This document shows positions 28,619 through 30,470 of a stretch of 35,960 nt of DNA, one piece after another. The notes below the pieces were generated by a model that worked only from the letters and a program-made list of their open reading frames with translations, searched no databases and was not told the DNA's origin. The first letter of the stretch is position 1. Every line of letters begins with the position of its first letter. The position numbers were made by a program, and so were the translations under genes. The stretch is from Christensenellaceae bacterium (lineage in GTDB: Bacteria; Bacillota; Clostridia; Christensenellales; DTU072). The DNA lies in assembly GCA_031259085.1 (NCBI GenBank), contig JAIRMA010000011.1:1-35960 (forward strand), written 5' to 3'.

Positions 28619-29230
28619 TTACTCGGATTCTACAAATACTCTTGTTTTATCATGTGATATTACTTCGCGGCATTTTTTAACATGTATTATAGATGTGTCG
28701 CGACCATAGATTTTACAACCACTACCATCCGCAAACACAATACAAACATCAGATGCTGTAACATCACAACCATCATAAGCCTTAATTATCGTAACATCGT
28801 ATCCATGTATAACACATTCATCGTCTGCTACAACATAGCTATAGTCACGAGCTGTTATTCTGCATTGCCCACTCGCTAGTAAATGTGAGTTATCTTTTAA
28901 TTCTACCACACAATTATCAGTGGCATTAATTTTGCATTTATCATAACCCCTAATTAAACATTGATCGTAAGATACAATTTTAGATTGACCGTGCGCCTCG
29001 ACAACAGCTTTTCCATATGCTTTAACTGCGCAATGGTCTTTAGCAGTTATAACAGCATCATTATAGACACAGACACTACTCCTGCCAACCGCCGATACAG
29101 TAGCATTATATTTTTTTGTATCGTAAATGTTAATATTGACATCTGGTGAGGTGTTAATAACAATTGGTACGTCCCATCCCTCTGGCAGTTTGTCAAATTC
29201 AGTTTGATTAGTTATTAATACGCTAACCAT
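28619..29230 (-). CDS. Octapeptide-repeat beta-solenoid protein with a cysteine ladder
   Basis: A 203-residue protein with no recognised family name. After an N-terminal part (about residues 1-50, including LPEGWDVPIVINTSPDVNI) it is built of repeats of eight residues from about 66 to 187, with pattern x-hydrophobic-x-A-Y/x-D/G-x-C/S, for example KIVSYDQC, LIRGYDKC, KINATDNC and IIKAYDGC. Such repeats fold into a narrow beta-solenoid. Nine of its eleven cysteines (67, 91, 99, 107, 123, 139, 155, 163 and 187) fall at the same phase of the eight-residue period. There is no signal peptide or membrane helix. GGAG sits 8 bases before the ATG. It lies between jag and mnmE. Confidence 0.7.
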   Translation of the reverse strand: MVSVLITNQTEFDKLPEGWDVPIVINTSPDVNINIYDTKKYNATVSAVGRSSVCVYNDAVITAKDHCAVKAYGKAVVEAHGQSKIVSYDQCLIRGYDKCKINATDNCVVELKDNSHLLASGQCRITARDYSYVVADDECVIHGYDVTIIKAYDGCDVTASDVCIVFADGSGCKIYGRDTSIIHVKKCREVISHDKTRVFVESE

Positions 29231-29391
29231 ATTTAAATCTCCAGCTTTTTATATTATTGAAAACCAAAATAATAATTTGTCAAAACATTTAACATGTTAA
29301 CACATCTTGAAACAATAACTATTTAGCATTTAGATAAATTTATGTAATCTTATAATGACTAATGAGAAACAACTGAGCTTTTTTACGTCCC

Positions 29392-29422
29392 ATTAGCATA
29401 GACCAAAAAGGTCTATGCTAAT
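29392..29422. terminator. Perfect 13-bp hairpin behind jag
   Basis: ATTAGCATAGACC (29392-29404) and GGTCTATGCTAAT (29410-29422) pair completely around a five-base loop, 22 bases after the jag stop. It is a very stable hairpin, but neither strand has a T-tract after it, so it may be a processing or mRNA-protecting structure, or a weak terminator before the solenoid gene. Confidence 0.6.
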
Positions 29423-29444: not shown

Positions 29445-30470
29445 TTATTCTTTATCTTGATCAGGATTTTGGTAATTCTTATCTTTATTATATCCAGAAT
29501 TATTGTATGGACGTGATTGATTTGGGTTGTATGGACGCTGTTGATAATTTGGATTATAAGGACGTTGCTGATTATTTTGATTATATGGCCTATTCTGTTG
29601 GTTAGGATTATATGGCCTGTTCTGTTGATAGTTTGGATTATAAGGGCGCTGTTGTTGATTAGGGTTGTTGTACGGTCTGCTTTGTTGATTAGAATTGTAT
29701 GGCCTATTTTGATTATTCTGATTATACCTATTATATCCACCTTCTGGCCTTGAGGTACCATCATGTTGTGGACGTTGTCCATAAGGTGCATTTGACCTGT
29801 TATCACCATAATTATTAGGGCGCCTGTTCTGATAATTATTATTCCTGTTTTGATTAGGATTTGGACGATAAGGCTTATTTCCATACCCAAATGACTTCTT
29901 TTCAACATGTGGTATGATTACTACGTGCCTTAGATTGCCTTCCCCAGTAGACTCAGTACGGGCATATTTATCATTGGCAAGCGCTGCATGTACAATGCGT
30001 CTTTCAAATGGATTCATTGGATCTAATGGTATCCTTCTACCTGTAACAGATGCCTTATATGCTTTCTGTAATGCGAGGTTTTTTAACGATTCTGAGCGTC
30101 TCTCCCTGTACATTCCAGCATTAACCAAAACTCTTAAGAAATCAGTATCTTTTTTGTTTGCAATAACTAACGTCATATACTGTATTGCATCAAGAACCTC
30201 GCCTCTAAATCCAATCGCTTGCGATGCACCATATCCAGATATCTGAACATGTATCTCTCCATCAACAATAGTTGTCTCTACCGAGCTAGATATATTTAAT
30301 TTAGCGAGGAGATTCTCTATGAAATTCGTGACTTCCTCTGACACTTCCAACAGATATTCTGGTGAACGTACTGGCTTACCATCTAATTCTGGGGCTGTAT
30401 CGTCTAGTAAATCCTGGACATCTTCAGACATTGTGACACCAATGTTGTCATTCGTATCTTCATTTCCCAT
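29445..30470 (-). CDS. jag: KhpB/Jag-family RNA-binding protein with a repeat-rich disordered tail
   Basis: A 341-residue protein in the usual yidC-jag-mnmE order. A KH domain (about residues 45-115, with GFRG at 87-90) precedes an R3H domain (about 120-187, R157xxxH161). Jag/KhpB with KhpA binds many RNAs and influences cell elongation and division in Firmicutes. Two oddities: the separate N-terminal Jag-N domain is missing, replaced by a short acidic start, and from about residue 196 there is a 145-residue tail made of N, Q, P, Y, R and G with eight RPYN repeats. Such prion-like tails often drive RNA-protein condensates. AAGGAG lies 13 bases before the start codon, rather distant. Confidence 0.88.
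   Translation of the reverse strand: MGNEDTNDNIGVTMSEDVQDLLDDTAPELDGKPVRSPEYLLEVSEEVTNFIENLLAKLNISSSVETTIVDGEIHVQISGYGASQAIGFRGEVLDAIQYMTLVIANKKDTDFLRVLVNAGMYRERRSESLKNLALQKAYKASVTGRRIPLDPMNPFERRIVHAALANDKYARTESTGEGNLRHVVIIPHVEKKSFGYGNKPYRPNPNQNRNNNYQNRRPNNYGDNRSNAPYGQRPQHDGTSRPEGGYNRYNQNNQNRPYNSNQQSRPYNNPNQQQRPYNPNYQQNRPYNPNQQNRPYNQNNQQRPYNPNYQQRPYNPNQSRPYNNSGYNKDKNYQNPDQDKE
29502..29705 (-). repeat. RPYN tandem-repeat region inside jag
   Basis: Codes for residues 256-323 of Jag, in which RPYN recurs eight times at 8-10 residue intervals (RPYNPNQQN-like units). The DNA shows matching tandem copies such as GGATTATAAGGACG. Such coding repeats are prone to expansion and contraction. Confidence 0.85.

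Follow-up and report, generated by a model that had tools for sequence, protein, structure and literature searches.

A gene encoding an octapeptide-repeat protein between jag and mnmE

The window analysed here is a 35,960-nucleotide stretch of a Christensenellaceae genome. It carries an ATG-initiated gene for a 203-residue protein, referred to below as X, within the gene order rnpA, yidC, jag/khpB, X, mnmE, mnmG (Table 1). The assignments of the genes around X were obtained with Pfam and bear out the original prediction that X interrupts a conserved housekeeping neighbourhood next to mnmE and mnmG. The GC content of X (0.363) is similar to that of the neighbouring genes and the protein is only mildly acidic (pI 5.5). 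No X-specific promoter stood out (15 promoter-like sites as compared to 11.9 expected) and no X-specific terminator was found, the single terminator-like site falling within the X gene on the opposite strand.

Table 1. Features of the X locus, in window coordinates
Feature	Position	Strand	Basis or remark
CDS of X, predicted octapeptide solenoid	28619..29230	-	Stop codon 28619-28621; ORF call and ortholog
N-terminal cap, residues 1-43, begins MVSVLITNQTEFDKLPEGW	29102..29230	-	DSSP of models, phage alignment
Octapeptide repeat region, residues 44-200	28631..29101	-	Periodicity and DSSP
Cysteine series C107, C123, C139, C155, C172 (every second rung)	28715..28912	-	All Cys in ortholog too
Putative ribosome-binding site GGAG, 8 nt upstream of the X ATG	29239..29242	-	Read from sequence
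Perfect 13-bp inverted repeat directly after the jag stop	29392..29422
Low-complexity tail of Jag/KhpB	29445..29860

After the N-terminal cap, X consists of about 17 octapeptide rungs that continue almost to the C-terminal end, with the consensus [DG]-x-[CSAT]-x-[VI]-x-[AG]-[YFHx], where column 8 is often Y, H or F. The eight-residue unit first read from the sequence was thus recovered as a period of 8. According to DSSP analysis of the models, the cap contains a single short helix besides a few strands. In alignments it resembles the starts of phage relatives (TQAELDQ, SQDELDK, SQADWDA).

Predicted structure

AlphaFold2 models of X were obtained with two alignments, of 9 and 2 sequences, at mean pLDDT values of 94.3 and 94.2, respectively. 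Both runs agree on a regular all-beta repeat with one short helix at the start; the predicted strands are 4-6 residues long and occur about every 8 residues. Judging from this strand periodicity and from weak structural matches, the prediction is consistent with a beta-solenoid, as had been anticipated. With Foldseek, no match to solved structures or viral models reached an E value of 0.001. The matches in the PDB were weak and mostly to beta-helix proteins, with rmsd values of about 10 Å or more. Among viral models, the best superposition was with a DUF7666-containing phage protein (TM 0.71, rmsd 3.7, Foldseek E 0.1), and a serralysin-like model matched weakly (TM 0.51). Searches of Pfam, NCBIfam and PADLOC gave nothing usable, and a sequence search of the PDB gave nothing significant. 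A match to Pfam Cthe_2159 (E 0.014) was rejected as it fails the cut-off of that family.

X is under purifying selection in a lineage-restricted slot

An ortholog of 204 residues, 44% identical to X, was found in the same jag-mnmE slot in a second species of the genus (Christensenellaceae MAG JAIRKT010000096.1, L043:6001-6615). Because this second species carries the same gene at the same place, X is not an artefact of a single assembly. Identities at the three codon positions were 62, 69 and 50%, and the NG86 method gave a dN of 0.45, a dS of 1.36 and a dN/dS of about 0.33. Therefore, the X protein is under purifying selection. Searches of the family, the order and the phylum recovered no further ortholog. 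Single-sequence scans of viral and genome contigs with X found nothing, and a scan with the two-sequence alignment of X and its ortholog recovered only the latter.

The jag-mnmE gap measures 864 and 908 nt in the two X-bearing genomes. In 11 of the 13 family genomes examined, comprising the third species of this genus and a further ten sampled members, X is absent and jag is directly adjacent to mnmE. The third species (genome 86% complete) has no match elsewhere in its genome either. The expectation that orthologs always sit beside mnmE thus holds for the sole ortholog-bearing species, whereas most of the sampled family lacks X altogether. The X slot is lineage-restricted and not old. Gain of the gene in the ancestor of the two species and loss in the third both fit these observations; gain is simpler because the rest of the family is without X.

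Some features of the adjoining jag gene were also recorded. A long low-complexity tail (RPYNPNQQ-like) is present in Jag/KhpB: beyond the aligned Jag core, all three species of this genus have about 127-143 residues, as compared to 5-84 in ten other family genomes. The spacer between jag and X folds far better than shuffled sequences (z -4.9). The inverted repeat at the jag stop occurs once in the genome and is not followed by a U-run; in the ortholog, the spacer has no unusual folding.

Cysteines of X occupy one column of the repeat

X contains 11 cysteines (residues 54, 67, 91, 99, 107, 123, 139, 155, 163, 172 and 187), or 5.4% of its residues, as compared to 1.4% across the 21 other ORFs of the window. 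Nine of them fall at positions 3 mod 8, as originally claimed. By a binomial estimate, nine cysteines would share any one phase with a probability of about 2.6e-6, and none of 200,000 random placements reached nine. Once a one-residue slip visible in the ortholog alignment is counted, C172 also comes into phase (10 of 11). The phase is kept in the ortholog: on a simple 8-residue grid, the nine column-3 cysteines of X correspond to 6 Cys, 2 Ser and 1 Ala. The five cysteines at successive second rungs (Table 1) are joined by C99 as the sixth column-3 cysteine common to both proteins. This every-second-rung pattern, seen in the two species alike, points weakly to a coil of two octapeptides; in a test of cysteine spacing, p values of 0.09 at lag 16 and 0.025 at lag 32 were obtained, uncorrected and with four lags tried.

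Identical cells between X and its ortholog were counted column by column. Columns 3, 5 and 7 were identical in 35 of 51 cells and columns 2, 4, 6 and 8 in 21 of 68 (Fisher p = 8e-5). Over the 17 rungs, columns 3, 5 and 7 gave 11, 12 and 12 identities, as compared to 5, 6, 4 and 6 for columns 2, 4, 6 and 8. Column 3 behaves as an inward column because it is conserved like columns 5 and 7. Residue alternation, from which the thiol direction, the coil length and the handedness were deduced, together with this conservation, suggests that the column-3 thiols probably face inward and pack the core. The idea of cysteine rows lining one face of the solenoid was therefore retained as regards the single phase but not as regards exposure, the column being probably inward, with core-like conservation.

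The same column was compared in 15 relatives from phages, viral contigs and other genomes (196 rungs). It contained S 107, A 68, V 9, T 6, G 4, N 1 and C 1; as the motif used to pick the rungs restricts column 3 to S, A, T, C, V, G or N, the counts compare these residues among themselves. Over such motif-selected rungs, the cysteine share is about 45% in the X lineage and about 0.5% in the relatives. The shift of column 3 from Ser/Ala to Cys is real and peculiar to this lineage, and it is the unusual part of X.

X is a distant relative of phage repeat proteins

Sequence searches supported the suspected likeness of X to phage repeat proteins. X matches the phrog_15773 profile with an E value of 3.6e-11 over residues 3-161, its ortholog matches with 1.2e-7, and tblastn with X gave matches in eight phage records. 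The relatives are scattered over unrelated phages (of Mycobacterium, Gordonia and P. gingivalis, and a microvirus), and a few Rhodococcus plasmids also carry them. Members of phrog_15773 such as Mycobacterium phage Squirty gp51 share with X the octapeptide solenoid and a related N-terminal motif. However, they are phage-encoded with Ser/Ala at column 3, whereas X is chromosomal and Cys-rich there; it lies not in a phage or prophage but among rnpA, yidC, jag, mnmE and mnmG. The relatives in Squirty (gp51) and Dulem virus 38 also have a C-terminal DUF7666 domain, which Pfam found in two of the phage members examined (L026 and L027) and in neither X nor its ortholog.

Further octapeptide proteins from viral contigs and another Clostridia genome (L023, L031-L041, L044) have a repeat like that of X, [DG]-x-[SA]-x-V-x-A-x, but their N- and C-terminal domains differ (DUF3310 in L037) and cysteine is almost absent from column 3. 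The octapeptide gene of the other Clostridia genome is similar to a gene from a viral contig. In a scan of 391 genomes of the class, five matched and, besides the window's own, only one looked genuine on reading. The profile matches G074 (an iron-dehydrogenase-like gene), G056, G832, G963 and G736 were rejected as chance or low-complexity matches after reading the frames. Apart from the SufB precedent discussed below, no paper was found on this octapeptide family. Family membership suggests a phage origin for X and a putative transfer into the chromosome; the GC content, similar to that of the neighbouring genes, does not point that way.

Other octapeptide genes were observed along the way. 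The X genome carries a second, diverged octapeptide-like gene (L019:6661-7446, profile E 1e-5), which may lie on a mobile island, as genes for a Y-family polymerase and an HTH repressor are found next to it together with an ImmA-like gene. The sister species likewise has a further octapeptide gene (L003:1384-2060), apparently split into two frames for cap and repeats, with a gamma-glutamyl cyclotransferase-like gene alongside. An octapeptide gene also occurs close to a gamma-glutamyl cyclotransferase in phage MW202615, which could be chance. The 5.5-kb microvirus PQ007062 contains a small octapeptide-repeat ORF (L050:1962-2528) between its replication initiator and pilot protein genes.

Interpretation

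We consider it reasonably probable that X is a solenoid of phage type, chromosomally fixed in one small lineage, with a core column changed from Ser/Ala to Cys, and acting as a rigid binding rod in the cytosol. An octapeptide solenoid of phage or prophage type would have been acquired by an ancestor of the two Christensenellaceae species, and the gene would then have become fixed between jag and mnmE. The chain would form short strands linked by three-residue turns, with columns 3 (small), 5 (V/I) and 7 (A/G) pointing inward and columns 2, 4, 6 and 8 outward. The cysteines would lie in the inward column 3, a position taken by Ser or Ala in relatives. In the reducing cytosol they would most likely fill the core as slightly larger, more hydrophobic residues and thereby stiffen the rod. 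The outward columns, which vary, may serve as the working surface and bind a macromolecule of the host or of a phage. However, core packing leaves unexplained why only the X lineage changed column 3 to Cys.

The strong, lineage-specific enrichment of cysteine in one column, and the five cysteines kept at successive second rungs in both species, would also suit a ladder of stacked thiols binding soft metal ions, polysulfide or small Fe-S species. X would then store or carry metal or sulfur, possibly for tRNA thiolation or Fe-S supply. A precedent is the beta-helical Fe-S scaffold SufB/SufD, in which the functional C405 of SufB lies inside the beta-helix core, as proposed for the cysteines of X, with a putative sulfur tunnel (PMC5571166). 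X, however, does not match SufB/SufD significantly in sequence or in fold (fold match E 0.75 or worse, TM 0.20 or less), nor does it have a significant fold match to any metal or Fe-S protein. The column is core-like, and three of the nine in-phase cysteines are Ser or Ala in the ortholog, which is loose for ligands. Moreover, MnmE and MnmG make cmnm5U-type modifications, in which no sulfur is used. Metal binding by such a ladder is unlikely, and core packing in a solenoid of phage type is the more probable reading; a slightly smaller chance is given to an internal wire of thiols, one per 16-residue coil, holding soft metal or sulfur in the cytosol.

The phage kinship of X, its absence from most relatives and the second octapeptide genes of both genomes, one of them beside polymerase, HTH and ImmA-like genes, could also mean that X is the remnant of a mobile element in a tolerant gap, with little or no host function. 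This is hard to reconcile with an open frame of near-equal length (203 and 204 residues) in the same slot, at 44% identity and a dN/dS of about 0.33, and we consider it improbable. Lastly, the predicted solenoid has no clear C-terminal cap, a strand at 197-200 lying near the end, so that X might join end to end into cytosolic filaments, with bactofilin-like behaviour. A cap is nevertheless predicted at the N-terminus and Pfam shows no match to bactofilin up to an E value of 10; we regard filament formation as the least probable of these readings.

Among known solenoids, the pentapeptide repeat proteins (Qnr/EfsQnr) are bacterial cytosolic beta-solenoids, as X is predicted to be, and EfsQnr is a weak structural match (E 0.71, TM 0.30). 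Their repeat is of five residues, whereas that of X is of eight and has no Pfam match; X also differs in being only mildly acidic. The RTX beta-roll differs by its nine-residue Gly/Asp calcium-binding repeats, and X has no Pfam RTX match. To our knowledge, no role has been assigned to the octapeptide solenoids that many phages encode. As a chromosomal gene, under selection and in a fixed slot, X provides a small, stable and probably well-folding member of the family for study. That one lineage exchanged Ser/Ala for Cys in a core column represents a natural experiment on beta-solenoid interiors, whether in packing or in chemistry.
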